Below are positions 9,167 to 38,958 of a stretch of DNA of 42,402 bases, one piece after another (positions within the stretch are counted from its first letter, which is position 1; every line of letters starts with the position of its first letter). The position numbers and the translations under genes are program-made. Source of the DNA: Pirellulales bacterium (GTDB taxonomy: Bacteria; Planctomycetota; Planctomycetia; Pirellulales; JAICIG01); the NCBI GenBank assembly GCA_035533075.1, contig DATLUO010000035.1:1-42402 (forward strand), given 5' to 3'. Under the pieces are notes generated by a model that ran no database searches, was not told the origin of the DNA, and saw only the letters and a list, made by a program, of their open reading frames with translations.

Positions 9167-12100
9167 GTGACTACCGACTCAAAAGTTGAAGTGCAGAAGC
9201 GGCTGAAAGCGACCGCCCCTCGACCCGCAACGGCTGCCAAGGCCCGGTCGGGCAAGCGCTGGGTGCTGAACTTTCGCCTGCTGGGCGTGACTGCCGCCGT
9301 GCTGGCGGTGGTCGCTCCGGCGCTTTATTTCTGGCACGCTTATCAGGTCGAGCGGAATGCGTCGGCGCTGCTGGCCCTGGCCGGCCGGCACGAAGAGCGC
9401 GACGAATGGATGGAAGCCGCCGAGGAGCTGCACCGCTACTTGCAGCTTCGCCCCGACGACCTGGAGGCCATCGTGCGGCGGGCCGAAGACTTCTATCGCG
9501 GGGCCAAGGCGCCCCTGCAGAAGGTCCGCGCCGTGCAGCTCTACGCCCTGGCCATCGCCTTGGCGCCCGACCGCGACGACTTGCAACGACGCCAAATGTC
9601 GTTGCGGCTGGAAACGGGCGACTATCGGGCAGCGGTCGAACAAGCGCGAAAGCTGCTGCAGAACACGCCCGACGACCCGGAAGCCCTTCGCGTGCGGGCG
9701 CTCGGACAGTACCACCAGTGGCGCTCCCGAAAAGTGGAGCCGCCGCAAACGATCATCGACGCCTTCCAGGCGGCGATCGCCAAGAATCCCAACGACAGCG
9801 AGTTGGCTACGACACTGGCCGTCTTTTACCGCGTCGACGTTCGGCCGTCCAAGGCGCTCGGCAAAGCCGAACTGGAGCAGAAGGCCGATGAGGCAATGGA
9901 CGCTCTGGTTGCCAGATCGGAGCAGAAGGCGGACGCCTTCCTGAACCGCTATCTCTACCGCCTGCAATTCAATCTCCCGGAAGCCGACGCCGATCTCGAC
10001 CAGGCCGTTCAGGCCGACGAGCCCAAAAAGACGTTGGGGGTCTGGCTGGCCGCCGGTCAGCGGGCCCTGAGCGCCCGCGACTACCAGCGGGCTGTGGAAC
10101 ATTTTCGCGACGCGGTCGAGCTTGAGCCCGCCGACCGACGCGGCCATCTCGGACTGGGCAACGCCTACAGTGCTCAAGGGAAGGACGAGCCGGCGGTCGG
10201 GGCCTGGCAAGAGGGCCTGGCCAAGACCGAGCCGAACGACATTGAGTTGCAGCTTCTGATTGCCGCGGCCGAAGTTCGACTGGAGCGCTGGAAGCAGGCG
10301 GAAACCGACCTGGCGCGCCTCGAGCGGCAACTCGCGCCGCTGACGGGACCGCAACAGGCCGAGCTGCAAGGAACGATTCATCTTTTGCGCGCCGACGCGG
10401 CCATCGGAAACAAGCGGTACGCTCAGGCGCTGGCCTCGTTGAAGCAATCGTTGAAGCTGCGTCAGGCCGGGGCCGAGTCGCTCAGGCGGGCCGCGTCGAT
10501 CGCCCAGGTCGAAACGCGGATGGCTCAATGTTACACGGCGTTGGGCCAGGCCGACCAGGCGGCGCTGGCCTATCAGCGGGCGGCTGATTTGCTGCCGCGC
10601 GACGCCGGTCCGCGGCTGTTGGCCGCCGTGGCCTGGGAAGCAGCAGGCCGCTTCGATGAAGCCGTCCGACAATACGACGAAACGCTGACGCTGAAGGGCA
10701 TCGCCTCGGGCGTCCGGGTGGCACTGGCCAATGCCGAATACCTCCGCCAGCTCACCACGCCGTCGGCCCAACGCAATTGGGAAAGGTTGAGCGCCGAACT
10801 GGCCCTGGCGAAAGCCGATTTCGCCGAGCGCGAAGTCGCAGAACCCGCCTTGCTGACGCTCGTCGACAGCGAGTATCAGGCGTTGAACGGGCTGGTCGAT
10901 CAGGTGGTCGAACGTGTGCAGGGCATCGAGGAAGCGTTGCTCGAAAACAAAGACCTTACACGGCGGCTCGCATTCGATTACGAGCGTTGGGAGCGATCGA
11001 ACGACGCCGACCGTTTGCTCGAGCGGTTCCGCACGGTCGCCAAAGACCCGCTCGACTACCGCTTGCTGGCCGCCGAAGTACAGTTCCGGCGAAACCGGCA
11101 CGACGAGGCGTTCCGCCTGCTCACCGATGTCTTGCCGACGACCTCCGGGGCGGCGCGCCGCGATGTGCAGTTCCGGCTGGCCGTGATGTATCTGGCCGAC
11201 GGCAAGGTGGAGCAGGCCCGGCCGTTGCTGGCAAGCCTGGCCGCCGATGACAAAGACGACCCGCGGCCGCTGCAGTTCCTGGCCGAGCTGGCCCTGCAAT
11301 CGGGCAACATCGAAGACGCCGTGACCTGCAATCGGGATCTGGAGGCACGTGAAGGCCCGGATGGAACCAACTGGCGCTACTATCGCGCCCAGCAACTGCT
11401 GGCCCAGGCCGGCAAGCTCGCCAAAGACGATTCGGCGGCCGCCAAAAAGCTGCTTCAGCAGGCCGTGGAGTTGCAGCAACAGGTGGAAACGCTCAGGCCC
11501 GGCTGGGCGCCAGGATACTTGCTGAAGGCCAGGCTGCTCGAAGCGGGGCTGGTGCGCGACGAGGCGACGGCCATTCAGGCCTACACGCAGGCCATTCGCC
11601 TGGGCTTGAAGTCGGTGCCGATCTATGACGCGCTGATCCTTCTGCTTTACCGCCAGAACCGGATTGCCGAAGCCGACGGCTACCTCAGCCAGTTGCGCGA
11701 TGCGAATCTCTTGCCCCAAGAAATGACCCCGCTCGCCATGGCCATCGACATTCGGCGAGGCAACGTCTCGAGCGCGATTGCGATGGCCCGCGAGCAGATC
11801 GCCAAAGAGCCGAACGACGCCGTGCGTCATTTGCGCTTGGGCATGCTGCTGGCCGGCGAGGCCAACCAGCGCGACGCGTCGGCAAAGGCCGAGGCCGCCG
11901 ACGAGGCGAAGCTGGCGGAAGCCGAAGTCGAACTGAAGCGGGCGCGAGATCTCGCGGCTGACGACTCGCGCAACTGGGCCGCCTTGCTGTCGTTTTACAT
12001 CAGTAGCCGGCAAACGGAAGCGGCGGCGAAGCTGCTCGACGAGGTCCAGCAAACCGAGTCGCTCACGGGCGATGTGAAGGCGTTCTTTCTGGCCCAAGGC

Positions 12101-13609
12101 TACGCGGCGCTCGGCGATCACGAGCAGGCGAAGTCGCACTATCTGGAAGCGATCGAGGCCGCGCCCGAGCGGGCCGCCGTACACAAGCAGGCGGGCACCT
12201 ACTTTTATACCCGAGACCGGCAGCTTGCCGAAAAATGCCTGCGCCGCGCGCACGACATCGACCCGAACGATCACGTCACGACGCGGTTGCTCGCCAACCT
12301 GCTGACCTCGACCGGCGAAACACAAGAGAACCTCGATACCGCCTGGAAGCTGCTCGGCGAGGGCCAGGCCGACGAGCTGATCGAGCCGGCCGACAAGCGC
12401 CTGCACGCGATCCTGTTGCTGAAACGCGGCGGCACAGACTACCGTCAGCACGCCCAGCAATTGCTCGAAGCGCTGGCCGGTGATTCCAAGCGGGCGGCGC
12501 CGATCGACCGTTTGCTGCTGGCCCGGCTCTACGAGGCCCAAGGCAAGATGGCCGAAGCCCGCGAACAGTTGAAGCTGCTGGTGAACATCGAGCGTCCCGC
12601 GCCCGAACATCTGGCGGCTTATATCGACAACCTGTTGCGCTCGGGACGGTCGGCCGAAGCCGCCGGCCGGCTCGACGAGTTGGCGCGGACCGAACCCGAA
12701 ACGAGCAGCTTGCGCACGCTGTCGTTGCGGGTGCGCTGGCTCAAGGACCAGGACCGGGCAACCGACATCGGGCCGCGAATCGAATCGTTCCTCGAAGATC
12801 GCCTGGCGGCCTTGCCCGAAAAACCGAAACAGGCCAAGGCGGTGGTCGCGGCCGCCGAGTTGTACGCCGCCGTCGGCATGGCCGAAGCGGCCGAGCAAAC
12901 GTATCGCCGGGCGATCGAAATCGATGCCTCGGCCACCCGCGATCTGGTGTCCTGGCTGAACAAACAGGGACGAACGAGCGAGGCCATTCGGCTCTGCCTG
13001 GAAATGGCCCAGAACGACTCGTCGCCGTTGCCGGCCATGTTGCTCAGCAACGTGCTGGCGGTGGGCAGGCCGACGGAAGAAGACGAGCGGGCCGCCGGGC
13101 CGGTTTTCGAGCGCGCCCTCGCAGAGCACGCCGACCAACCGGAGTTGCTGTTCAGCATGTCGATCAAATACCTGATGGACGGCCGCAACGACGAGGCGAT
13201 CGATCTGTTGCGCAAGACGCTCAAGTTGCGGCCGCGCCACTTGCCCGCCATGAACAACCTGGCGTTTATCCTGTCGCTCAAGCCCGATGGGCGCGAGGAA
13301 GCCGCCGACCTGATGGACCGTGCGATCGCGATCGCGGGCATGAATCCCGAGTTGCTCGATTCCAAAGGTTGGGTGCTGATGCAGCAGCACAAGCTGGCCG
13401 AGGCGCTGGACGCCTTCCAGGAAGCGCTGTCGAGCGCGCCCGGCGACGCGCGTTACCATTTCCATCTCGCGCTGACCTATCAGCTTCAGGGCAAGCTCGA
13501 GGCGGCACGCAAGTCGCTGGCGCAGGCGCGCCAAGGCGGTCTGGCTTCGGCCGTGCTGCCGCCCGACGAAAAGTCGGCCCTGACCAGGCTCGAAACGGCT
13601 TTGCAATGA
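9167..13609 (+). CDS. Giant membrane-anchored TPR protein
   Basis: 1480 residues from a GTG at 9167, 18 nt after the kinase gene; no better ATG occurs before the membrane segment. A basic N terminus precedes one transmembrane helix at ~36-57 (GVTAAVLAVVAPALYFW). The rest is helical repeats with many TPR-like units, such as DYQRAVEHFRDAVELEPADRRGHLGLGNAYSAQG, here given in parts: DYQRAVEHFRDAVELEP at ~305 and LRRAHDIDPNDHVTTRLLAN at ~1025. C-terminal TPRs are the clearest (DEAIDLLRKTLKLRPRHLPA, ~1345). Large TPR proteins are usual companions of exosortase loci (PrsT-like) and are thought to scaffold glycan or protein export across the envelope. The topology predicts a periplasmic repeat domain. 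No catalytic motif is visible. Confidence 0.85.
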   Translation: MTTDSKVEVQKRLKATAPRPATAAKARSGKRWVLNFRLLGVTAAVLAVVAPALYFWHAYQVERNASALLALAGRHEERDEWMEAAEELHRYLQLRPDDLEAIVRRAEDFYRGAKAPLQKVRAVQLYALAIALAPDRDDLQRRQMSLRLETGDYRAAVEQARKLLQNTPDDPEALRVRALGQYHQWRSRKVEPPQTIIDAFQAAIAKNPNDSELATTLAVFYRVDVRPSKALGKAELEQKADEAMDALVARSEQKADAFLNRYLYRLQFNLPEADADLDQAVQADEPKKTLGVWLAAGQRALSARDYQRAVEHFRDAVELEPADRRGHLGLGNAYSAQGKDEPAVGAWQEGLAKTEPNDIELQLLIAAAEVRLERWKQAETDLARLERQLAPLTGPQQAELQGTIHLLRADAAIGNKRYAQALASLKQSLKLRQAGAESLRRAASIAQVETRMAQCYTALGQADQAALAYQRAADLLPRDAGPRLLAAVAWEAAGRFDEAVRQYDETLTLKGIASGVRVALANAEYLRQLTTPSAQRNWERLSAELALAKADFAEREVAEPALLTLVDSEYQALNGLVDQVVERVQGIEEALLENKDLTRRLAFDYERWERSNDADRLLERFRTVAKDPLDYRLLAAEVQFRRNRHDEAFRLLTDVLPTTSGAARRDVQFRLAVMYLADGKVEQARPLLASLAADDKDDPRPLQFLAELALQSGNIEDAVTCNRDLEAREGPDGTNWRYYRAQQLLAQAGKLAKDDSAAAKKLLQQAVELQQQVETLRPGWAPGYLLKARLLEAGLVRDEATAIQAYTQAIRLGLKSVPIYDALILLLYRQNRIAEADGYLSQLRDANLLPQEMTPLAMAIDIRRGNVSSAIAMAREQIAKEPNDAVRHLRLGMLLAGEANQRDASAKAEAADEAKLAEAEVELKRARDLAADDSRNWAALLSFYISSRQTEAAAKLLDEVQQTESLTGDVKAFFLAQGYAALGDHEQAKSHYLEAIEAAPERAAVHKQAGTYFYTRDRQLAEKCLRRAHDIDPNDHVTTRLLANLLTSTGETQENLDTAWKLLGEGQADELIEPADKRLHAILLLKRGGTDYRQHAQQLLEALAGDSKRAAPIDRLLLARLYEAQGKMAEAREQLKLLVNIERPAPEHLAAYIDNLLRSGRSAEAAGRLDELARTEPETSSLRTLSLRVRWLKDQDRATDIGPRIESFLEDRLAALPEKPKQAKAVVAAAELYAAVGMAEAAEQTYRRAIEIDASATRDLVSWLNKQGRTSEAIRLCLEMAQNDSSPLPAMLLSNVLAVGRPTEEDERAAGPVFERALAEHADQPELLFSMSIKYLMDGRNDEAIDLLRKTLKLRPRHLPAMNNLAFILSLKPDGREEAADLMDRAIAIAGMNPELLDSKGWVLMQQHKLAEALDAFQEALSSAPGDARYHFHLALTYQLQGKLEAARKSLAQARQGGLASAVLPPDEKSALTRLETALQ

Positions 13610-13646
13610 ACCGGCGACCGCGGTCGCACCCCTGTTCCCAGCCGAC

Positions 13647-14336
13647 ATGAACTCAAACGCCTCGCACATGATGCTTCTCCCGCGCCGGCAAATTCCTTAC
13701 GTCTTGTTGATCGCGCTGACCATCGCCTCGGGCGCCGTTGCCGGGGCGTTTAACAACCGCTGGGGCACGCCGGCAAACTTGTCGGCGGCCGGCGAACGGG
13801 TTGCCAACTTTCCCAAACAGGTCGGTCCCTGGCGGCTGGAAACCGCGGAGCCGTTTATTCCCGTCGTGGCCGAGATGCTGGAATGCGCGGGAAGCCGGTC
13901 GTGTACCTATCGCCATCAGCAAACCGGCGCCGTGGTTCGCGTCGGCCTGCACGTCGGGCCGCCGGGACCGACGTCGGTCCATACGCCGGACGTTTGCTAC
14001 AGCAGTCAAGATTTTGAGCAAATCGGCCCGCGCACGCGGATCGAGCTGCTTTCGCCTGCCCGTGGCGGCGGCACGTTTTGGAAAGCCGATTTCCGCGCCC
14101 GCACCTTGCGCGGCGGGGCGATGCACGTGATCTACGGTTGGAGCACGGGCCACGGCTGGGTGGCGGCCGATCGGCCACGCTTCGAGTTTGTGGGTCATCG
14201 GCTGCTGTACAAGTTGCAGGCGGCCTCGGTTTACGACGAAGACAACGACGAGGACGGTCCGCCGGCCTATCAGCAGTTTTTGGAAGAGTTGCTGCCGCTG
14301 GTCGATGCCCAGATTCTGCGTGGGCCGTCGCGGTAA
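13647..14336 (+). CDS. EpsI-like exosortase-associated protein
   Basis: 229 residues with one N-terminal membrane segment (IPYVLLIALTIASGAVAGAF), then a domain containing FPKQVGPWRLE, a basic TYRHQQTGAVVRVGLHVG strand and the hallmark HTPDVCYSSQDFE. This matches the HxPxVC motif of the EpsI family, which is encoded beside or fused to exosortases. Its molecular role is not established, although the Cys/His motif is strongly conserved in the family. The acidic tail (DEDNDEDG) is unusual. It lies 37 nt after the TPR gene in the same direction, so it is almost certainly part of the exosortase operon. Confidence 0.85.
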   Translation: MNSNASHMMLLPRRQIPYVLLIALTIASGAVAGAFNNRWGTPANLSAAGERVANFPKQVGPWRLETAEPFIPVVAEMLECAGSRSCTYRHQQTGAVVRVGLHVGPPGPTSVHTPDVCYSSQDFEQIGPRTRIELLSPARGGGTFWKADFRARTLRGGAMHVIYGWSTGHGWVAADRPRFEFVGHRLLYKLQAASVYDEDNDEDGPPAYQQFLEELLPLVDAQILRGPSR

Positions 14337-14429
14337 GCACGCCGGCCGGTGGAAGTCGTCGCCAACACATCGTTCGCCCGTCCCTTTTTCCTTGCCTGTT
14401 TCCTTTAGAAAGCACGGGAGCCAGCATCC

Positions 14430-15338
14430 ATGAGTTACGCCCTTCGTAGTGAGGCGGTTGAGCGAGAATTGCTCGATCGCACAGCCGACAACGACGCTGG
14501 CGGGCGGCTTGCACCCACGGCCTACCTGTGCCGCAAGGGGGCGGTCGATCGCCTCGCGGCGTGGCTGCTGTTGGCCGCCGGCTGGCCGATCATTTTGGCG
14601 ACCATGCTCGTCGTCCGCCTGACTTCTCGCGGCCCCGCCGTTTTCCGGCAAACACGCGTCGGTCTTCACGGCCGCATCTTCGTGATGTACAAAATCCGCA
14701 CCATGCGGATCGATGCCGAAGCGGCCAGCGGCCCGGTCTGGACCCAACAGAACGATCCGCGGATCACGAGCGTCGGCCGTTGGATTCGCCGCCTGCACCT
14801 CGATGAGCTCCCGCAGCTCATCAACGTCGTCAAGGGCGAAATGGCACTCATCGGCCCCCGGCCCGAACGCCCTGAATTCACGCAAAAGCTCGCCCTCGAC
14901 GTTCCGGGCTATCTCGACCGGCTGCTGGTGCTTCCGGGTGTCACCGGCCTGGCCCAAATCAACCTGCCGCCCGATACCAATCTCGACAGCGTGCGGCGCA
15001 AACTGATTTTGGACCTGGCCTATGTTCGCGAGGGAAGCTTGTGGCTCGACCTGCGAATTTTCGCCTGCACGTGTGCCCGCTTGTTCGCGGTCAAGGGACC
15101 GCGCGTCACGCGTTTGTTCGGCCTGCAGCGAATCGCCTACCTGCCGGCCCCCGCGGCCTTTGACGCCGGGACGGCGACCATGGCCACGGACGACGAGTCG
15201 CCCACCGTCGACTTGGTTGCCGCCAGCCTGCTGGCCAAGACGAACGGCCATGTCCATCCAGCGGCCAACGGCCACAACGGACACGCCGGCCCCTGGTCGG
15301 ACGAAGTGCCCGCCGCCGCCCGCCGCCGCCCAAGATAA
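14430..15338 (+). CDS. Initiating sugar transferase (undecaprenyl-phosphate sugar-1-P transferase)
   Basis: 302 residues. One membrane hairpin at ~43-63 is followed by the bacterial sugar-transferase catalytic domain: FRQTRVGLHGRIFVMYKIRTM (in parts FRQTRVG and YKIRTM, 72-92), DPRITSVGRWIRR (109-121), the acidic LHLDELPQL (123-130), GEMALIGPRPE (~136-146) and LPGVTGLAQIN. Such enzymes transfer a sugar-1-phosphate from a UDP-sugar to undecaprenyl phosphate and so start glycan synthesis. The N-terminal multi-TM half found in WcaJ/WbaP is absent, making this the short catalytic form. The last ~60 residues (TNGHVHPAANGHNGHAG) are low complexity and probably disordered. It follows the EpsI gene by 93 nt. 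Confidence 0.92.
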   Translation: MSYALRSEAVERELLDRTADNDAGGRLAPTAYLCRKGAVDRLAAWLLLAAGWPIILATMLVVRLTSRGPAVFRQTRVGLHGRIFVMYKIRTMRIDAEAASGPVWTQQNDPRITSVGRWIRRLHLDELPQLINVVKGEMALIGPRPERPEFTQKLALDVPGYLDRLLVLPGVTGLAQINLPPDTNLDSVRRKLILDLAYVREGSLWLDLRIFACTCARLFAVKGPRVTRLFGLQRIAYLPAPAAFDAGTATMATDDESPTVDLVAASLLAKTNGHVHPAANGHNGHAGPWSDEVPAAARRRPR

Positions 15339-15344
15339 CAATTC

Positions 15345-15377
15345 ATCATTTGCATTTTGCAATTCGCCATTCCCCCC
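15345..15377. repeat. Degenerate heptamer array (ATTTGCA-like) before deacetylase
   Basis: The short gap before the deacetylase start reads as successive 7-mers ATTCATC, ATTTGCA, TTTTGCA, ATTCGCC, ATTCCCC. It is a decayed array related by reverse complement to the GCAAATT array at 31728. The last unit directly abuts the ATG at 15378. Confidence 0.45.
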
Positions 15378-16250
15378 ATGCTGCAAAACGCCTTCACCGT
15401 CGACGTGGAAGATTACTTCCAGGTCACCGCCTTCGAGCGGCACATCCGCCGCGACGACTGGTCGACGTTCGAAAGCCGGGTCGCCCGTGGCACCTATCGC
15501 CTGCTCGATCTGCTTGCCCGGCACAACACGCGGGCCACGTTCTACGTGCTGGGCTGGGTTGCCGAACGCTTCCCCGAACTGGTCCGCGAGATTCAATCGG
15601 CCGGGCACGAGCTCGGCTCGCACAGCTACTGGCACCGCTTGGTTTACCACCTGTCGCCCGACGAGTTCCGCGAGGATCTCGTCTTGTCGCTCCGCATTCT
15701 CGAAGGCATCACCGGTCAGGCCGTGGCGAACTATCGGGCACCCAGCTTTTCCATCACCCGCCGCTCGCTGTGGGCGCTGGACATCCTGGCCGAGCACGGC
15801 ATCACTTGCGATTCGAGCGTCTTTCCGATTCACCACGATCGCTACGGGGTGCCCGGCGCCCAGCGGCACATTCATCGCCTCGACACGCCGGCCGGCCCGC
15901 TGTGGGAGTTTCCGCCCTCGGTGTCGCGCGTGAGCGGCGTGAATTTGCCGGTGTCGGGCGGCGGCTATTTCCGGCTTTATCCATTGTCGCTGACGATCCG
16001 CTGCCTCGAACGAATCAACCATGCCGGGCGGCCGTTCATGTTTTATGTTCATCCCTGGGAAGTCGATCCCGGTCAGCCTCGTTTGCCGGCCGGCACGCGG
16101 CTCTCGCGACTGCGGCACCGCGTGAACCTGGCCTCGACCGAAGCCAAGCTCGACCGCCTGTTGGCCCGCTTCCGCTTCGGCCGTGTCTCGGACGTCATCG
16201 CTCAACACGCCCATGAGTCTGTAGGGAGCGCCCTCTGTGGCGCTCCGTGA
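15378..16250 (+). CDS. Exosortase-associated polysaccharide deacetylase (NodB fold, DUF3473)
   Basis: 290 residues from ATG 15378 (MLQNAFTVDVEDYFQVTAFE); a TTG seven codons earlier would start inside a repeat and is less likely. NodB-type motifs are present: TVDVEDYF with D9/D12, SHSYWH with metal-binding H82 and H86, and NYRAPSFSI. The C-terminal part (YFRLYPLSLTIRCLERIN, MFYVHPWEVDP) matches the extra domain of the deacetylase subfamily tied to exosortase/PEP-CTERM loci. It should remove N-acetyl groups from a surface polysaccharide. There is no signal peptide. The final residues (SVGSALCGAP) are encoded by a dispersed hairpin element, so the native C terminus has probably been replaced by repeat-derived sequence. 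Confidence 0.9.
   Translation: MLQNAFTVDVEDYFQVTAFERHIRRDDWSTFESRVARGTYRLLDLLARHNTRATFYVLGWVAERFPELVREIQSAGHELGSHSYWHRLVYHLSPDEFREDLVLSLRILEGITGQAVANYRAPSFSITRRSLWALDILAEHGITCDSSVFPIHHDRYGVPGAQRHIHRLDTPAGPLWEFPPSVSRVSGVNLPVSGGGYFRLYPLSLTIRCLERINHAGRPFMFYVHPWEVDPGQPRLPAGTRLSRLRHRVNLASTEAKLDRLLARFRFGRVSDVIAQHAHESVGSALCGAP
16218..16246. repeat. Dispersed hairpin element, copy A (translated at a gene end)
   Basis: GGAGCGCC-CTCTGT-GGCGCTCC at 16225-16246 forms an 8-bp perfect stem with a 6-nt loop. A second copy at 17446-17467 has the same loop and a compensatory base-pair change. It supplies the C-terminal codons of the deacetylase just before its stop. Confidence 0.75.
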
Positions 16251-16253
16251 ATT

Positions 16254-17525
16254 GTGAACCTGCTTTACCTCGTCCATCGACTGCCTTACCCGCCCGACCG
16301 GGGCGACCGCATTCGTTCTTGGCACCTGCTGCGGTTCTTGGCCGAGCATGCCCGAGTCGACGTGGCTTGCCTGGCCGACGAGCCGGTGACCGACGAACAG
16401 CGCCGGGCGCTGGCGGCCGTCTGCCGGCGCGTGGCCATCGTGCCGCTCGACCGCCGTGTTCGCTGGTTTCACGCCGCCCGCTCGTTGGCCCGCGGACGCT
16501 CGGCGACGGAGGGTCTGTTTCATTCGCGGCAGCTTGTGCGGACCCTGACCGACTGGGCGAGCGAAACGCGCTACAACCGCGTGGTGGCCTTCTGTTCGAG
16601 CATGGCTCCCTATCTCGACCTGCCGGCGTTGTCGGGCGTGGCGAAGTTCTGCGACCTGGTGGATGTCGACAGTCAGAAGTGGTTCGACTACGCCGCCACG
16701 GCCCGCGGCCTCAAACGCCGGCTGTTCGCGCTCGAAGGCCGCCGCGTGCGAAAGCTCGAAATGAATCTTGCTCATCAAACCGAAGCGCTCCTCGTCGTCA
16801 GCCAACCCGAAGCCGGGCTGCTGCATCGCTTTTGTCCGATGGCCAACGTGCATGCCATCGCCAACGGCGTCGATCTCGATTACTTCCACAATCCAAAATC
16901 CAAAATCCAAAATCCAAAATCTCTCGTGTTCGTCGGCGCTCTCGACTATCGGGCGAACATCGACGGCGTCACCTGGTTTTGCCGCCAGGTCTTGCCGCGC
17001 GTCCGTGCCCGTTATCCGCAAGCCGTCGTCTCGCTGGTCGGCCGCAATCCGCTCTCCGCCGTTCGCGAGCTGGCCTCGCTGCCGGGCGTCGAGCTGGTGG
17101 GCCAGGTGCCCGACATCCGGCCGTTCGTGGTCGCCGCCACCGTGGCCATCGCGCCCTTGCGAGTGGCCCGCGGCATCCAAAACAAGGTGCTGGAAGGAGC
17201 CGCCCTGGGCAAGCCGGTGATCTCCTCGAGCGCCGCCCTGGAGGGCTTCGACCTGGTTCCGGGCGAGCACGTTCTGCGGGCCGACACGCCCGACGAGTGG
17301 CTGGCCGCCATTTCGCTCTTGTTCGACGACCCCGCCGAGCGCGACCGCCTGGCCGCGGCCGGCCAGGCCTTTGTCGAAGAGCACCACACCTGGTCCGCCC
17401 GGCTCGCCCCGCTGGCGGACCTGCTCCGCCTCGATGCCTCTGTCGGGAACGCCCTCTGTGGCGTTCCGGAGCTTGCCACCCGCCGGGCGGAAGCTCTCGC
17501 CGTAGCGATGAACCCTGAACCCTGA
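16254..17525 (+). CDS. Exosortase-associated glycosyltransferase (GT4-like)
   Basis: 423 residues from GTG 16254, three nt after the deacetylase stop. The start MNLLYLVHRLPYPPDRGDRIR is split here as LYLVHRLPYPP and DRGDRIR. With IANGVDLDYF, LVFVGALDYRANIDGVTWF and PLRVARGIQNKVLEGAALGKP it matches the glycosyltransferase subfamily found in PEP-CTERM/exosortase loci. It should add a sugar to the growing glycan in the cytoplasm. Two oddities are visible. Residues 213-223 (NPKSKIQNPKS) are encoded by a heptanucleotide array inserted between the two Rossmann domains. The C terminus is repeat-derived, with SVGNALCGVPE from a hairpin element and MNPEP plus the stop codon from a GAACCCT array. One heptamer gained or lost at 16890 would frameshift the gene. 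Confidence 0.88.
   Translation: MNLLYLVHRLPYPPDRGDRIRSWHLLRFLAEHARVDVACLADEPVTDEQRRALAAVCRRVAIVPLDRRVRWFHAARSLARGRSATEGLFHSRQLVRTLTDWASETRYNRVVAFCSSMAPYLDLPALSGVAKFCDLVDVDSQKWFDYAATARGLKRRLFALEGRRVRKLEMNLAHQTEALLVVSQPEAGLLHRFCPMANVHAIANGVDLDYFHNPKSKIQNPKSLVFVGALDYRANIDGVTWFCRQVLPRVRARYPQAVVSLVGRNPLSAVRELASLPGVELVGQVPDIRPFVVAATVAIAPLRVARGIQNKVLEGAALGKPVISSSAALEGFDLVPGEHVLRADTPDEWLAAISLLFDDPAERDRLAAAGQAFVEEHHTWSARLAPLADLLRLDASVGNALCGVPELATRRAEALAVAMNPEP
16890..16921. repeat. Heptanucleotide array AATCCAA inside a glycosyltransferase
   Basis: About 4.4 perfect units of period 7. It is stop-free in all six frames and is translated as NPKSKIQNPKS. It lies in the inter-domain linker, so the present unit number keeps the frame open. 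Confidence 0.9.
17446..17467. repeat. Dispersed hairpin element, copy B (translated)
   Basis: GGAACGCC-CTCTGT-GGCGTTCC: an 8-bp perfect stem with the same loop as copy A at 16225-16246. The fourth stem pair differs (G-C in A, A-T in B), and both sides have changed. It encodes VGNALCGVP near the end of the glycosyltransferase. A GAACCCT pair follows at 17512-17525 and provides the TGA stop. Confidence 0.75.
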
Positions 17526-17543
17526 CCCCCGAACTCTCTCTTC

Positions 17544-18527
17544 GTGGCTCACGACATCACACTCGAACCGACCGACGAAACCGTAGGCCAGGCTTTCCCG
17601 CCTGACGCCGACGGCGGTGGCGCCACCGGCACGCTCACGCCTGCCGCTCGCCACGACCAAATCGAAAATCCAAAATCCATAATCCATAATGACTCCGACG
17701 ACGAGCTGCCCGTCACGATCATCGAGCGCAAGCCGGGCTGGAAGTTCGTCGATCTGGCCGAGCTGTGGCGTTATCGCGAGCTGCTCTATTTCCTTACTTG
17801 GCGCGACGTCAAGGTCCGCTACAAGCAGACCGTGCTCGGCGCCGCCTGGGCCGTGTTGCAGCCCTTCGCCACGATGGTCGTGTTCAGCCTGTTCCTGGGC
17901 CGCTTGGGCAACATGTCGAGCGGCGACCTGCCGTATCCGCTGTTCGCCTTCGCCGGGCTGTTGCCGTGGACCTTTTTCGCCACGGCCATTTCGCAGGCTG
18001 GCTCCAGCGTGGTGGGCAGCCAGAACCTGGTGACCAAGGTCTACTTTCCGCGGCTGTTCATTCCGATGGGTGCGGTGGCGGCCGCGCTGGTCGACCTGGC
18101 GGTGGCCTGCGGCATGCTGCTGGCCATGATGCTGTATTACGGGGTGATGCCCGGCTGGGGGCTGTTGTTGGCTCCTTTGCTGGTGATCGGGCTGACGGTG
18201 GCGGCGTTGGGCGTGGGGGTGATGTTGTCGGCCTTGACGGTGGCCTATCGCGACTTTCGTTATGTGGTTCCGTTCATGGTTCAGCTTTGGATGTTCGCCA
18301 CGCCGACCATCTACATGCAGGCCGACTCGGTGATCAGTCCCAAGTGGCACAGCCTGATGCCGTTCAACCCGGCGTTTGGTTTGATCCTCAATTTTCGCCA
18401 GGCGACGCTGGGCGGCCCGCTCGACCTGTGGGCCTTGGCGGTTTCGCTTTCGGTTTCGGTGTTGCTGTTGATCGGCGGCTGTTTGTATTTCCGCCGCGTC
18501 GAGCGCAGTTTCGCGGACATTATTTAG
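17544..18527 (+). CDS. Wzm-type ABC-2 polysaccharide export permease
   Basis: 327 residues from GTG 17544. Residues from ~57 on are a standard Wzm/TagG permease: ITIIERKPGWKF-like lead (here VTIIERKPGWKF), ELWRYRELLYFLTWRDVKVRYKQ in parts WRYRELL and RDVKVRYKQTVLGAAW, then six membrane segments ending FRRVERSFADII. It should export lipid-linked glycan across the inner membrane with an ATPase. The probable partner is encoded about 7.5 kb downstream at 26068. The N-terminal ~56 residues are abnormal: 14-33 (VGQAFPPDADGG) and 41-50 (ENPKSIIHND) are encoded by two dispersed repeats, and no other in-frame start precedes the conserved domain. The stop TAG is the first unit of a GGTTAGT array. Confidence 0.9.
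   Translation: MAHDITLEPTDETVGQAFPPDADGGGATGTLTPAARHDQIENPKSIIHNDSDDELPVTIIERKPGWKFVDLAELWRYRELLYFLTWRDVKVRYKQTVLGAAWAVLQPFATMVVFSLFLGRLGNMSSGDLPYPLFAFAGLLPWTFFATAISQAGSSVVGSQNLVTKVYFPRLFIPMGAVAAALVDLAVACGMLLAMMLYYGVMPGWGLLLAPLLVIGLTVAALGVGVMLSALTVAYRDFRYVVPFMVQLWMFATPTIYMQADSVISPKWHSLMPFNPAFGLILNFRQATLGGPLDLWALAVSLSVSVLLLIGGCLYFRRVERSFADII
17583..17691. repeat. Two repeat elements translated in the permease N terminus
   Basis: 17583-17607 is a hairpin element GTAGGCCAGGCTTTC..GCCTGACG, also present in variant form at 23985-24011 between genes. 17664-17691 is a heptamer series GAAAATC, CAAAATC, CATAATC, CATAATG related to the AATCCAA arrays. Both are read through in frame. Confidence 0.7.
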
Positions 18528-18597
18528 TGGTTAGTGGTTGGTGGTTAGTGGTTAGTGGTTAGTGGTTGGTGGTTAGGGGTTAGTGATTAGGGGTTGG
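18525..18597. repeat. GGTTAGT heptamer array starting at the permease stop codon
   Basis: About ten 7-nt units (TTAGTGG with TTGGTGG, TTAGGGG and TTAGTGA variants). The array begins with the TAG stop of the permease gene. TAG occurs in every unit, so the array closes all three forward frames. Confidence 0.9.
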
Positions 18598-19265: not shown

Positions 19266-19370
19266 GGCTAGTGGTTAGGGCAATGAGACCGTGGTTAGTG
19301 GTTAGTGGTTAGTGGATTGGTTAGTGGTTAGTGGTTAGTGGTTAGTGGTTAGGGGTTAGGGGTTAGGGGC
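19266..19370. repeat. GGTTAGT heptamer array
   Basis: A run of GGTTAGT units with GGTTAGG variants, interrupted near 19280-19290 and 19316. It lies between the nested inverted-repeat element and the GAACCCT array, in a gene-free stretch (18528-19532). Confidence 0.85.
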
Positions 19371-19390
19371 TGGCGACTTCCAAGTTCCCT

Positions 19391-19488
19391 GAACCCTGAA
19401 CCCTGAACCCTGAACCCTGAACCCCGAACCCTGAACCCTGAACCCTGAACCCTGAACCCCGAACCCTGAACCCTGAACCCTGAACCCT
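19391..19488. repeat. GAACCCT heptamer array with 5-unit higher-order period
   Basis: Fourteen exact 7-nt units. Units 5 and 10 are GAACCCC, the other twelve are GAACCCT, giving a 35-nt higher-order repeat. Each GAACCCT junction contains TGA, so all forward frames are closed. Confidence 0.95.
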
Positions 19489-20299: not shown

Positions 20300-20326
20300 A
20301 ATCCGCTCCTACGGCGTTTGCTTACT

Positions 20327-20394
20327 GAACCCTGAACCCTGAACCCTGAACCCTGAACCCTCGCCGGGACTTTGGACTTCGGACTTTGGACTTT
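20327..20394. repeat. GAACCCT x5 followed by GGACTTT x4
   Basis: Five perfect GAACCCT units at 20327-20361, a 5-nt joint, then GGACTTT, GGACTTC, GGACTTT, GGACTTT at 20367-20394. A CACGGAT-containing dispersed repeat follows at about 20402-20431. Two unrelated-looking heptamer families are placed back to back. Confidence 0.9.
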
Positions 20395-31174: not shown

Positions 31175-32600
31175 CAAGTTGCTGATCGTGGCCCATTCGC
31201 CTTTGCGGGGCGGGGCCGAATACTGTCTTGATACGACGTTGCGCAATCTCGACCGGAACAACTTCGACGCCACGGTGGTTTTTCCGTTCGAGGGGCCGAT
31301 GAGCCACGCGGCACGCGAATACGGTTACGACGTGCGTGCGACGCCGCTTTGCCATTGGCTGTACTTCGACAAAGACGCATGGTACTGGAAGAATTTGTTA
31401 GGGCGATCTTGGGCCAACGTGCTCCGGTTGCGGCGATTGATTCGCGAAGTCCGGGCTGACGTGGTCTACACCAATACGAGTGCGATCTTCGAAGCGGCGG
31501 TGGCGGCCAGGTTGGCCGGCGTGCCGCACGTCTGGCACGTCCACGAGGTGCTGGCCGAGGGCAACCGCATGCAACAGCTTTTGCCGCTGCCGGTGATGAA
31601 GCGATTGATTTACCGACTATCGGACCGGATCGTGTTTGAATCGCACTCGGCGCGCCGCGTGTTCGAAACTTCGACGCCCGCCGATAAATCGGTGGTGGTT
31701 TACAATAGCCTTCGGCTGACGGACGAGATTGCAAATTGCAAATTGCAAATTGCAAATTGCAAATCGGACGAGAATGCTGCCGCGAATCCAAAATCCAAAA
31801 TCCAAAATCCAAAATCCGACTGCCCTCACCTAGCCTCTCCCGAGGGGAGAGGGATTTTTGGCCTGGAGGCTGATGATCGCGTGATTGGTTTTGTGGGGCA
31901 GTTCATCGACCGCAAGAACCCGCTGCTGCTGCTCCGCGCGTTGGCGAAAGTGCGGGAAGTGCCGCGGCTTAAGTGCCTGTTTGCCGGAGAAGGACCGTTG
32001 GAAGGCGCGATGCGGGCAGCGATCGGCCGGTTGTGCCTGGGTGATATTTGCCGGATTGTCGGCTTTCAATCCGATGTGGCGCCGGTGATGCGAGCGATTG
32101 ACATCTTGGTGCTCTCGTCGCGGCAGGAATCGTTCGGACTGGTGTTGGTTGAGGCGGCCAGCCAGGGCAAGCCGGCCATCGCCTGCCAGTGCCAAGGCCC
32201 TGGGGAGATCATTGTCGATGGGGAGACGGGCTTACTCGTGCCGCAGGACGACGAGAACGCGATGGCGCGCGCGATCGAACGGATGTTCGCGGATGACGGC
32301 GTGCGGCGGCGGATGGGCGACGCGGGCAGGCGGCGGGCGTACGAGGAGTTTTGCCCGGTGAAAAACACGCGGAAGCTGGAGCAGGTGTTTATCGAGGTAA
32401 TTGAAGCGTCGCGGCGAGGCCGGCGTGAGCGCCGTAGCCCTCTCGCTCCGCGCGAGGAAAGCCTTCGTAGCCCGCTTGCTCCGCAAGCGGAAAGCCTTCG
32501 TAGCCCGCTTGCTCCGCAAGCGGATGGCGCGGGAGGATGGGCTTCCCAGCCCGTCTCGTCAGAACGTATCTCCGCTTCGACGAGGGATAGTAGCCACTGA
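31161..32600 (+). CDS. GT4 glycosyltransferase carrying repeat-encoded insertion and tail
   Basis: 479 residues from ATG 31161. It is a GT-B enzyme with LLIVAHSPLRGGAEYCL near the N terminus, PHVWHVHEVLAEGN, VIGFVGQFIDRKNPLLLLRA and ESFGLVLVEAASQGKPAIA (Ex7E). Three non-native parts stand out. Residues ~190-202 come from a GCAAATT array (IANCKLQIANCK), ~209-219 from an AATCCAA array (NPKSKIQNPKSK), and PHLASPEGRG from a palindromic element; all are placed in the inter-domain linker. The last ~55 residues consist largely of an 11-residue repeat (SPLAPQAESLR). Heptamer copy-number changes at 31728 or 31785 would truncate or restore the enzyme. Confidence 0.85.
   Translation: MRRPDKLLIVAHSPLRGGAEYCLDTTLRNLDRNNFDATVVFPFEGPMSHAAREYGYDVRATPLCHWLYFDKDAWYWKNLLGRSWANVLRLRRLIREVRADVVYTNTSAIFEAAVAARLAGVPHVWHVHEVLAEGNRMQQLLPLPVMKRLIYRLSDRIVFESHSARRVFETSTPADKSVVVYNSLRLTDEIANCKLQIANCKSDENAAANPKSKIQNPKSDCPHLASPEGRGIFGLEADDRVIGFVGQFIDRKNPLLLLRALAKVREVPRLKCLFAGEGPLEGAMRAAIGRLCLGDICRIVGFQSDVAPVMRAIDILVLSSRQESFGLVLVEAASQGKPAIACQCQGPGEIIVDGETGLLVPQDDENAMARAIERMFADDGVRRRMGDAGRRRAYEEFCPVKNTRKLEQVFIEVIEASRRGRRERRSPLAPREESLRSPLAPQAESLRSPLAPQADGAGGWASQPVSSERISASTRDSSH
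31728..31853. repeat. GCAAATT array, AATCCAA array and palindrome in one linker
   Basis: 31728-31764 holds about five GCAAATT units; 31785-31817 about 4.7 AATCCAA units; 31823-31853 is a CCCTCACC..CTCTCCCGAGGGGAGAG palindromic element. All three are translated in the glycosyltransferase. Neither heptamer family contains a stop in any frame. Confidence 0.9.
32435..32533. repeat. 33-nt tandem repeats encoding a C-terminal tail
   Basis: Three copies begin at 32435 (variant), 32468 and 32501, each containing a hairpin such as CCGCTTGCTCCGCAAGCGG. They encode the 11-residue unit SPLAPQAESLR. The period is a multiple of three, so copy-number change would preserve frame. Confidence 0.85.
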
Positions 32601-34442: not shown

Positions 34443-37115
34443 CTACAGATACTGAACACCATTGATGACGACACCGAGTGTGTCGGCACTCGTATCAAGC
34501 GTAAGGCTGAAGGAGTACGTCGCACTGGTGTTGATGGCTAGAGTCTTCAACACCGCGCCGTTTTTTTCGATATACAGCCCGTTCCCAGCAACGCCCACGT
34601 ACCAGGTCACCCCGGCGTCGATAATCGTGATGCATGCTTGCGTGGCGCCCTGTGACGACGTGCCTGTGACCTCAAGCGTCGAGCCCGAAGTCGACTGGGT
34701 AAGCGTGAAAGCCGACGTTACGCCGCCAACGACCTGGGAACTGCCGACGCTGTTTTGCGGAGCGGGCGGACCGACCGGCGCGTCGTATCCGACGAGCCAG
34801 GAATGAGGCATGCCATCGACGATTCGCGTCAGCAGGTTCCAACCAGGCTGGAGCGTGATCGGCGTTGCCTCCGTAACCACTCCTTCCGGCGTGTAGTACG
34901 ACACCGTGTAGGTTGGCGACGAGACCTTGACTTGGCTTTTGTAGGGGTTTAATCCGTACCAGAACGGCGCCGCTTGCGACTGTGAGCTGCCGATCTCACC
35001 CTCCATCGCCAGCCCGTACTGTCGCATCAACTGGGTGTTCGTCAAACCGATCAGGGCGTCGGGAATATTGGCATCGGACGTGGGAAACGGCACATCGTTC
35101 CCGCCTTGGTTAGCAAAGTACGCTTCTACCCCGTTGATGTAGACCTGCTGCGGCACAAAATCCGTGTTCGGGTCGGTGCTCTCATAGGTGCGTTGCGAAT
35201 CCCATTGGTATTGCAACCGAGCGTCAGGACCAAAAGCTACACCGGAATAAGACAGACTCCGGTTGGATGACGTGGTTGACGACTGTTGGGTGATCTCAAA
35301 TCCCGTGAGATCATCCCAGTAGCCGCCGCTAACGGTATTGTCGATCCCGGCGGCCGGTGAATTAGCGCCTAATGCAAACCCAACGACCTGATCGTTGAAT
35401 GCATTAACGCTCCCGGCATAGCTGCTGATGTTTACGCCGACTGACTTGGAGATGAATCCTGGTACAGCAGCCAACGATGAGTTTCGGATGGCTATACTCC
35501 CGGCCCACTGGCCAACGTTGACTCCTACCGTGACGTCCCAGGCTGTGAAGTCGTTGATGACCGACTGGGTTCCAGGTGCAAGCGGCATCGTGATTGGCAA
35601 ATGCAGAAACAATTCAACGCCGTCAGTCGATTCAGCGGCGATGTTGCCTGAAAAACCTGCCAAGGGAACGCTTTCCGTGTTTTGGCCGTTCCAGGCGGTA
35701 ATTTGCCCTAAACTTCCGGCATAGTCGAGGCCCTGGTTGAGAAACTGAAAACCAGTCGTATCGTCCAAGGCGATGTTATTGATCAGTGAGACGCTTGGCG
35801 ATTGCATCCAGAAGCCACTGCCCGTGAAGCCAAAGTCGTTGATGTTGTTCCGAGATGTGTTTACGAAGTAGTCAGTCCCATTGGCCACGCCTGTCGTTCG
35901 CACGGCTAAATTGGCGTTGAACGTGCCAATCTCGTTGCCGGCCTCGGTCACGAAGCCGGCGCCGTTGTTGTCAAACGCTACATTGTCTTCCATGTCTACG
36001 TTCGACGAGTGGTTGTCGTAGCCCCAGCCGGGGCTGCCCATTTCGAAGTTGCCGCTGACGAGAATCGGTGGATCGTTCTCGGACATGGTGGGCCAGTAGT
36101 CTCGATGGAAGTGTACGGCATAACGACCGACCACGTTTTTGGTGCCGTCGGGATTGGTCGCTCCCAAGGGCAATGATTTGTTCGTGCGGCCAAGGTTACA
36201 GAAGTCGGCGTTTTCAACGACCTCCTGGTCGGTGTGCATGAACATCACATGACCAAAGCGTTCGTAATCGGTGGTGTTCTGGCTCTGGAAAATCACGTTC
36301 CGCGCCTCGTCGGCTACGTACACGTTCTGGCCAGGGACAGTGGAGTGCGTAAACTGCAAGGGGCTGGCCAGCGTGACCGTGTCGCCGTTGATGGCTTGAA
36401 TCTTGATCTGCTCGTCTTGGTTGGCGGTGGGCGACGTGCCCGGAAGGAGCAGCGTATCGCCGGCTTTCCACCCCGTCGGAACCGAGCCCAGCGTGATGGA
36501 CGTGCTGCCGACGTTCGTGTTGTACGCTGTATCGTAGGGTGTGACGGTGGCTCCGACGATCGAGACCGTATTCATGGAGATCAGGCCGCGGGCCAACTGT
36601 TCCGGGTCGTTTGGCCAGGCTTGCGTCAACGTTCCCGTATCGGCAAAGGTCAGCTTGGCCGTCACGCCGGGTTGAATGGGGTTGGCGAGCGTGCCGATAT
36701 CGAGCTCGCCGCGGGGAATACCGTTGGCGTCTTCCGTTCCAACCACGATGGTGTCGACCAAGAGACTGGTGTTGACGTTGGTGGCGAATTGCAGCAGTCC
36801 GTTATCGAGGACCGATCGCAGCGCGCCGGGCTCTTGGCCGTCGACGGTGACGGCGATGCCATTGGGAATCCAGACGTTGTCGCCGTTGCCGGGCACTCGG
36901 CCGCCCCAAGTCGCCGGGTCGCTCCAGTTGCCGGATTTCACGGCGGTGTCGGAGATGGCGCTTTGTGGAATCAAATTGCCGAGATAGGCACACTCGGCGG
37001 CGTACGTCGGATTGGCATTGCAGACCACCGTGGGCGTGCAACGCAGTTCCAATTGCTCGAGACGCAATTCTTTTTTGGGGAACCGTTTTTTGGGGAACCG
37101 TTTTTTGGGGAACAT
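34443..37115 (-). CDS. G8-domain beta-helix surface protein with planctomycete N-terminal motif
   Basis: 890 residues on the minus strand from ATG 37115. The N terminus has a threefold KKRFP repeat, then LRLEQLELRCTPTVV, resembling the LExLExR-type motif at the start of many planctomycete extracellular proteins. Residues ~62-190 match a G8 domain (WSDPATWGGRVPGNGDNVWI), and the region to ~700 is a right-handed beta-helix with VGRYAVHFHRDYWP near 330, as in CEMIP/fibrocystin-like proteins, some of which bind or cleave hyaluronan. The last ~110 residues form a separate beta domain (CITIIDAGVTWYVGVAGNGL, TLGVVINGVQYL). It is Thr/Asn/Gly-rich and clearly secreted in character. It may bind or process the glycan made by this locus. 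Confidence 0.85.
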   Translation of the reverse strand: MFPKKRFPKKRFPKKELRLEQLELRCTPTVVCNANPTYAAECAYLGNLIPQSAISDTAVKSGNWSDPATWGGRVPGNGDNVWIPNGIAVTVDGQEPGALRSVLDNGLLQFATNVNTSLLVDTIVVGTEDANGIPRGELDIGTLANPIQPGVTAKLTFADTGTLTQAWPNDPEQLARGLISMNTVSIVGATVTPYDTAYNTNVGSTSITLGSVPTGWKAGDTLLLPGTSPTANQDEQIKIQAINGDTVTLASPLQFTHSTVPGQNVYVADEARNVIFQSQNTTDYERFGHVMFMHTDQEVVENADFCNLGRTNKSLPLGATNPDGTKNVVGRYAVHFHRDYWPTMSENDPPILVSGNFEMGSPGWGYDNHSSNVDMEDNVAFDNNGAGFVTEAGNEIGTFNANLAVRTTGVANGTDYFVNTSRNNINDFGFTGSGFWMQSPSVSLINNIALDDTTGFQFLNQGLDYAGSLGQITAWNGQNTESVPLAGFSGNIAAESTDGVELFLHLPITMPLAPGTQSVINDFTAWDVTVGVNVGQWAGSIAIRNSSLAAVPGFISKSVGVNISSYAGSVNAFNDQVVGFALGANSPAAGIDNTVSGGYWDDLTGFEITQQSSTTSSNRSLSYSGVAFGPDARLQYQWDSQRTYESTDPNTDFVPQQVYINGVEAYFANQGGNDVPFPTSDANIPDALIGLTNTQLMRQYGLAMEGEIGSSQSQAAPFWYGLNPYKSQVKVSSPTYTVSYYTPEGVVTEATPITLQPGWNLLTRIVDGMPHSWLVGYDAPVGPPAPQNSVGSSQVVGGVTSAFTLTQSTSGSTLEVTGTSSQGATQACITIIDAGVTWYVGVAGNGLYIEKNGAVLKTLAINTSATYSFSLTLDTSADTLGVVINGVQYL
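37071..37115 (-). repeat. 15-nt triplication encoding KKRFP x3
   Basis: Three tandem copies of TTTTTTGGGGAACCG (plus-strand reading) at 37071, 37086 and 37101; the third ends in the start codon. Expansion would stay in frame. Confidence 0.9.
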
Positions 37116-37683: not shown

Positions 37684-38958
37684 ATGAGTCTTCGCATCAC
37701 GAGCGTTTACATCTGGGTGGCGGTCTTGCTGGCCTGCGCGGAGTTGGCGCTGCAGTACCGCGCCCATCAGCGCGGTTGGGACGCGCCGCTGTTCCGCACG
37801 GCGGCCGCTTCGGCCGCCACCGCGCGGGAAAAACCGGCCCAGGAAAATCCCGCCCAGGAAAAACCGGTCCGGTATGGTCCGACGGCAGACTTCCCCTTCC
37901 GCAGTCAAATCGTCGCTCGAGAGCGCAGCGCGGATACACTGCGGCTATGGGTGGCGTCGGCCTCGCATGCCGAAGATATTTACCTGGGCGTCGAAGAGAC
38001 ATTTCCCGCTCAGACTGGTCGGTTGTTGAACACAATCGCCGCGGGAGGCCACTGGCAAGTGCTCAACGCCAGCCGGGCGGGCAACGTTATCGCCACCAAC
38101 AAGGCCGACTTGTCGAAGCTCGCTCGCGAGTGGCGGCCCAACGTCGTGCTGCTCTATCAGATGTCGATGGAAATCGTGGCTTTGTCACGGGAGCATCTCG
38201 GTGCCAACCGGCCGACGCGAAAAGCGCACGCCGACACGGGCCCGGTTGAACCGAGGCACGAAAGCGCGCTGGAAAGAGCGGCCGCCGAGACGACAACGTA
38301 TTCCACGCTGAAAGCAAATATCACGCCATGGATCGCCAGCCAACGGGTACACGCGGAAGATATCGGCCAGGCCGCCGAGCAGGATTTCGACCGGCGCGTG
38401 CGCGACTTCGTGAAGGCGGTGCGGGACGTGGGGGCGTCGCCCGTGCTCTGCACGTTCGGCACCAGCCACAGTCAAGACGACGCCGGGCGCTTGCCGTGGC
38501 CGGTGCGGCAGTTCATGTTGCGCTACAACCGCTATCTTTCGCCGGCGGGCTGGACGCGCGCGATCGCGCGGTTCAACGCCGCCCTTCGCCAGATTGCCGA
38601 GGAAGAAGGCGTGCCGCTGGTCGATTGCGAACGGGCGATGACGGGGCAGGCGCGATACTTTCGAGACTTTGTTCACTTCACGCCAGAAGGGCATCGGCGA
38701 GTCGCGGAACTGTTGAGCGAGAAGATATTGGAGCTGTCAGCCGATTCGAGAATCCCTCACCCTGGCCCGTATGGTAGCCCTCTCGCTCCGCGAGAGGAAA
38801 ACCCGGAGGCAGAGGGGCCGGGGGTCAGTGGTCGGTGGTCGGTGGCGAGCGGTCAGTTGCTCGAGGGCCACGTCCAGAATCCAAAATCCAAAATCGAAAA
38901 TCCAAAATCCCGTGACGGCCTGGGAAGGCCATCCTCCGGCGCGGGAGGGCACGAATGA
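37684..38958 (+). CDS. SGNH/GDSL-type hydrolase-like, AlgX/DltD-like partner of MBOAT
   Basis: 424 residues from ATG 37684 (MSLRITSVYIWVAVLLACAEL), which gives a signal anchor; the in-frame ATG 37639 would add sequence lying in the repeat-rich gap. The catalytic-block Ser lies in LWVASASHAEDIYL, and the C-terminal Asp/His pair is in YFRDFVHFTPEGHRRVAELL. SGNH proteins encoded next to an MBOAT usually receive the acyl group outside the membrane and transfer it to the glycan. The ATG of the MBOAT gene overlaps the stop (ATGA), supporting coupling. A 15-nt triplication encodes EKPAQENPAQEKP near residue 50. The last ~60 residues are repeat-derived. Confidence 0.8.
   Translation: MSLRITSVYIWVAVLLACAELALQYRAHQRGWDAPLFRTAAASAATAREKPAQENPAQEKPVRYGPTADFPFRSQIVARERSADTLRLWVASASHAEDIYLGVEETFPAQTGRLLNTIAAGGHWQVLNASRAGNVIATNKADLSKLAREWRPNVVLLYQMSMEIVALSREHLGANRPTRKAHADTGPVEPRHESALERAAAETTTYSTLKANITPWIASQRVHAEDIGQAAEQDFDRRVRDFVKAVRDVGASPVLCTFGTSHSQDDAGRLPWPVRQFMLRYNRYLSPAGWTRAIARFNAALRQIAEEEGVPLVDCERAMTGQARYFRDFVHFTPEGHRRVAELLSEKILELSADSRIPHPGPYGSPLAPREENPEAEGPGVSGRWSVASGQLLEGHVQNPKSKIENPKSRDGLGRPSSGAGGHE
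38756..38912. repeat. Palindrome, GGTCRGT heptamers and AATCCAA heptamers in a gene tail
   Basis: 38756-38820 is a CCCTCACCCTGG-type element with a CTCTCGCTCCGCGAGAG hairpin. 38823-38857 is five heptamers (GGTCAGT, GGTCGGT, GGTCGGT, GGCGAGC, GGTCAGT). 38878-38912 is about 4.7 AATCCAA-type units. All are read in frame as the C-terminal tail of the SGNH protein (SPLAPREE, GVSGRWSVASG, NPKSKIENPKS). Confidence 0.9.

Follow-up and report, generated by a model that had tools for sequence, protein, structure and literature searches.

The closest described counterparts of the repeat reported here are the heptamers GGGAATC of Xanthomonas and GGGGA(C/T)T of Nostoc (PMC4692102). Like the AATCCAA repeat of our planctomycete genome, they occur genome-wide and mostly outside genes, favour about four units, and have their G-rich strand sense near stop codons and antisense near start codons. 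Inverted pairs of one polarity are frequent in Xanthomonas, and here all close pairs (22/22) are inverted and oriented TTGGATT...AATCCAA. The repeat differs from both in its unit, since TTGGATT has just two adjacent G, and in having several in-frame copies inside genes. Fixed-register ends are seen here. TTGGATT also fits the motif TDNGATT, repeats of which build the P6b stem-loop of the Nostoc trnL intron (PMC4476775), but that is a cyanobacterial group I intron, whereas the present repeat is dispersed over a planctomycete genome.

The E. coli K1 gene neuO likewise carries a heptamer array (AAGACTC) in a gene for a surface-sugar enzyme, and its full reading needs a fitting unit number (PMC13001214). 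Its repeats lie at the 5' end and form on and off alleles, with 3 to 53 repeats and most commonly 20, and 66% of the alleles in complete genomes are off; in our case the array lies in a mid-gene linker, has 4.6 units and belongs to a genome-wide dispersed repeat. The heptamer tandem repeats of H. influenzae hmw1A and hmw2A are also linked to surface traits, but they lie in the promoters upstream of the genes, with 13-38 copies that vary between strains (PMC2651432). Borg tandem repeats are genome-wide as well; where they fall within genes, the reading frame is preserved and disordered segments result (PMC9879509). The in-gene Borg units are divisible by three, whereas arrays of the 7-nt unit found here stay in frame through their total length or their flanks. 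A literature search found no publications on planctomycete heptamer repeats.

The DNA analysed here, called the window, is a stretch of 42,402 nucleotides. A sequence-only reading had proposed that an AATCCAA array in it, within an exosortase-type glycosyltransferase gene, is a phase-variation switch. The assignment of the gene holds: its product scores 425.4 bits against TIGR03087 (stp1, PEP-CTERM/XrtA glycosyltransferase), above the curated cut-off of 316.65, and the gene is part of an exosortase/EPS locus that also encodes an exosortase, a polysaccharide deacetylase of the XrtA system, a sugar transferase and a DUF3485 protein. The Pfam domain Glyco_trans_1_4 covers the C-terminal half, the AlphaFold model has a GT-B fold with a mean pLDDT of 90.5, and the Foldseek matches are GT4 enzymes. 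The array is equally real. It reads AATCCAAAATCCAAAATCCAAAATCCAAAATC, which is 32 nt or 4.6 perfect copies, and is translated in frame; its residues, 213-223, fall between the enzyme's two Rossmann domains, where the model places a coil joining the strands 199-201 and 223-227. The features of the window are collected in Table 1.

Table 1. Heptamer arrays in the window and the two glycosyltransferase genes that carry them in their linkers
Feature	Position	Strand	Basis
TIGR03087 (stp1) XrtA-system GT4 glycosyltransferase gene, GT-B fold	16254..17525	+	NCBIfam, Pfam, AlphaFold, Foldseek
(AATCCAA)4-AATC array, encodes NPKSKIQNPKS in the interdomain linker of stp1	16890..16921	+	sequence, AlphaFold model
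TGAACCC heptamer array, overlaps the stop codon of the stp1 gene	17509..17534	+	
Degenerate AATCCAA/AATCCAT array, 5'-proximal in the ABC-2 permease ORF 17544-18527	17659..17690	+	
Intergenic TTAGTGG heptamer array; different unit, same genome-wide phenomenon	18524..18597	.	
GTGGTTA and CCCTGAA heptamer arrays, intergenic	19291..19488	.	
CTGAACC and GGACTTT heptamer arrays, intergenic	20325..20394	.	
Second GT4 glycosyltransferase, heptamer arrays in the interdomain linker	31179..32600	+	Pfam; homologues without the insert
ATTGCAA x5.3 array, linker of the second GT4	31728..31764	+	
AATCCAA x4.7 array, linker of the second GT4	31785..31817	+	
AATCCAA/AATCGAA array, C-terminal tail of a GDSL-family protein (37684-38958)	38873..38910	+	

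The window holds many further heptamer arrays of several unit types, which the sequence-only reading had overlooked, among them the AATCCAA arrays at 17659-17690, 31785-31817 and 38873-38910. With up to two mismatches, the 14-mer AATCCAAAATCCAA has 14 matches in the window, where 0.2 are expected by chance. In the second GT4, Pfam annotates Glyco_transf_4 at residues 11-177 and Glycos_transf_1 at 226-386, and the linker between them holds a third, palindromic repeat besides its ATTGCAA and AATCCAA arrays. Two homologues align on either side of this linker with just 10-11 residues between, indicating a net gain of about 32 residues. As arrays are found in the linkers of two GT4 enzymes, GT4 interdomain linkers look like tolerant sites.

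The window also contains repeats of other kinds. Tandem repeats with periods of 33 and 15 nt occur at 32433-32524, 37071-37113 and 37827-37867. A palindromic repeat like GTAGGGAGCGCCCTCTGTGGCGCTCC, which resembles GTAG-tagged REP elements (PMC3733652), has two copies, at 16217-16247 where the deacetylase gene ends and at 17440-17470 in the glycosyltransferase's disordered C-terminal tail. In addition, open frames of 1565 and 1496 codons run antisense over the whole EPS gene block (13653-18350 and 9179-13669, both on the minus strand). Because the coding model picks the sense strand, these long frames are most likely a codon-usage effect.

The array in stp1 is one member of a dispersed repeat family with about 100 or more sites in the genome. 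Its 21-mer has 147 exact matches in the 8.5-Mb genome, and a reversed control has 0. Array statistics were taken from 1.18 Mb, mostly sampled regardless of arrays, to which stretches picked around arrays were added. A count of perfect arrays with a length of 21 nt or more gives 98 for period 7 and between 0 and 5 for each other period from 4 to 12, so that period 7 exceeds the neighbouring periods about twentyfold. As in dispersed STRR-like repeats, many short arrays of one heptamer are spread genome-wide. Within the family and order, just four of 97 genomes contain the 21-mer, led by this genome and the same-family genome G001 (11 matches), and over the phylum it is patchy (20/392 genomes). 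The reversed control 21-mer, made of AACCTAA repeats, has 15 matches in the phylum genome G107; this is a heptamer family distinct from AATCCAA, in a separate lineage.

Comparison with homologues shows that the repeat is not tied to the gene family. We aligned the linkers of 26 stp1 homologues by motif, the closest one found being 58% identical, and none of these 26 carries a heptamer array in the linker. The linker is 11-17 aa long in 23 of the homologues and 30-66 aa in the other three, with a median of 14 aa. The stp1 linker with its array has 13 aa, so the array gives the normal linker length of the family, and the repeat replaces the former linker at unchanged length.

Although 83% of the sample is coding, only 12 of the 98 period-7 arrays lie inside genes, which is a depletion; 74 are intergenic and 12 are at gene edges, with genes called by a home-made gene caller. 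Inside genes the AATCCAA copies are sense in 14 cases and antisense in none. AATCCAA is free of stops in all frames of both strands, and the bias would agree with NPKSKIQ being preferred to the hydrophobic LDFGFWI. All 14 arrays with coding sequence on both sides are in frame, a count from about a sixth of the genome that includes some single-copy unit types which may be ordinary coding sequence; under other settings the result ranges from 6/6 to 22/22. A simulation with inserted arrays recognised 92% of the out-of-frame copies and miscalled one per about 1,500, so at 92% detection power no out-of-frame allele was found among the 14. The hosts are linkers and tails of glycosyltransferases, TPR proteins, a kinase-WD40 protein and others. 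We therefore consider it about 80% probable that the stp1 array is a tolerated copy of a dispersed heptanucleotide cassette in a flexible linker and not an evolved switch.

In the TPR and kinase-WD40 genes of L119 (1879-13149) and L168 (17199-20000), several different heptamer arrays and other dispersed repeats lie in frame in turns and linkers. L103 (116-1483) is a 456-codon gene without a Pfam match, with an AATCCAA x5.9 array mid-gene, in a setting like the linker of a third glycosyltransferase.

If the array were a contingency locus, slipped-strand mispairing would change the unit number, so that the donor-binding domain is alternately read in frame or out of frame and a surface polysaccharide is switched on or off. 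On/off switching of stp1 by frame arithmetic is physically possible. The unit length, 7, does not divide by three, and a one-unit change does break the frame and destroy the C-terminal domain. The truncation that had been claimed follows in only one of the two wrong frames: loss of one unit or gain of two leads to a stop at about 17218 and a product of 319 or 326 aa, whereas gain of one or loss of two leaves the frame open almost to the normal stop and gives an untruncated product of 423 or 416 aa whose C-terminal half is scrambled. The gene lies in an exosortase/EPS locus, and the presence of arrays in the same linker of two GT4s of one polysaccharide locus, which a switch would also predict, counts against a tolerated copy. 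The same applies to the whole-unit differences among the copies of the family, from which it follows that the unit number does change over time. Heptamer switching is known from neuO (PMC13001214) and from the hmw promoters (PMC2651432), so a heptamer is not the unusual unit for a switch that it had been taken for.

Nevertheless, we regard a contingency locus as unlikely. The array has just 4.6 units, and published heptamer switches usually have more than ten. The 147 genome copies of the 21-mer are mostly outside genes, the in-gene copies are also found in TPR, kinase, VWA and AAA proteins, none of the 14 sampled coding arrays is out of frame, and the array is missing in all 26 homologues. 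The dispersed family also offers another origin for it. Furthermore, loss of three units, which keeps the frame, would leave a linker of 6 residues, below the length in every homologue (11-66 aa). An evolved switch is therefore not supported for this array, although low-rate slippage may occur at it.

The anatomy of the family bears on how the arrays arose. We read 98 distinct AATCCAA arrays with 2.6-5.9 copies, and their form is (AATCCAA)n-AAT(C) with n mostly 2-4. The start register is fixed, as 75 of the 98 begin exactly at AATCCAA (chi-square 325, 6 df), and 83 finish in AAAATC or AAAAT. The length distribution has peaks at 18, 24-25 and 31-32 nt, and the stp1 array is a 32-nt copy in the common register. 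In three other planctomycete families or genera, 19 of 24 arrays start at the identical register. A dispersed palindromic repeat, GGTGGGCCGGCGCTCGCAAGCTCGCTGGTCCCACC, often adjoins AATCCAA arrays (L008, L111, L121, L122, L143).

Plain slippage does not explain this fixed register. This is a difficulty for a local simple-sequence expansion, in which a chance near-repeat in the stp1 linker would have grown by polymerase slippage, independently of all other copies. According to work that PMC4679880 cites, no class of longer simple repeats is commoner than heptamers in many bacterial genomes, and slippage has been put forward to account for them. The linker length, being that of the homologues, means that no net insertion is visible in stp1. 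Independent slippage, however, predicts mixed registers and units, and identical starts and ends recur at unrelated sites and in other planctomycete families, so we judge a purely local origin very unlikely.

The placement of the arrays relative to genes could suggest a function in DNA or RNA. AATCCAA and other heptamer arrays are over-represented outside genes, near starts and stops, and in tandem gene pairs AATCCAA tends to be sense just 5' of starts and antisense just 3' of stops. The three inverted pairs that were tested all fold as strong hairpins. The arrays might then be regulatory elements that act by protein binding, as a hairpin or as a quadruplex-like structure near gene starts and ends, with the stp1 copy as one such site inside a gene. 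Published examples of similar placement are the heptamers of Xanthomonas and Nostoc (PMC4692102) and the Beggiatoaceae repeat TAACTGA (PMC4679880). However, the stp1 copy is single, has no RNA fold (0 kcal/mol) and lies mid-gene, 212 codons in, and the general placement could just as well result from gene avoidance. A regulatory role of the stp1 copy thus seems highly improbable.

For a tolerated copy of a dispersed repeat, we envisage the following course. Copies of the form (AATCCAA)n-AAT(C) would arise at many sites of the genome by a dispersal process, and selection would remove most of those that hit genes. The copies surviving in genes would be stop-free, sense and in frame, and placed in linkers, turns or tails. 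In stp1, the hydrophilic NPKSKIQNPKS would take the place of the ordinary interdomain spacer of an XrtA-system GT4 enzyme, which would thereby be produced at full length and probably be active. The array itself would be selectively neutral. The fixed register would be accounted for if cassettes with defined ends were dispersed first and inner units were gained or lost later.

More tentatively, the AATCCAA arrays in general may be fixed-end cassettes and not slippage products, written or moved by a templated or transposition-like activity common to planctomycete families, which would repeatedly rebuild the linkers of glycosyltransferases and other multidomain proteins; we consider this doubtful but worth stating. 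No clear association emerged between the arrays and RAYT transposases, the Y1 enzymes that move REP/REPIN elements: Y1_Tnp has 12 matches in the genome, and of the five whose surroundings were examined, one has an AATCCAA array in the sequence covered. Reverse transcriptase genes are present in the genome, and nothing connects them to the arrays.

A striking repeat inside a gene therefore needs to be judged against the repeat background of its own genome before it is labelled a phase switch. Moreover, given the fixed ends and one-way inverted pairs that planctomycete families share, comparing empty with filled sites would offer a test of how heptanucleotide repeats spread in bacteria.
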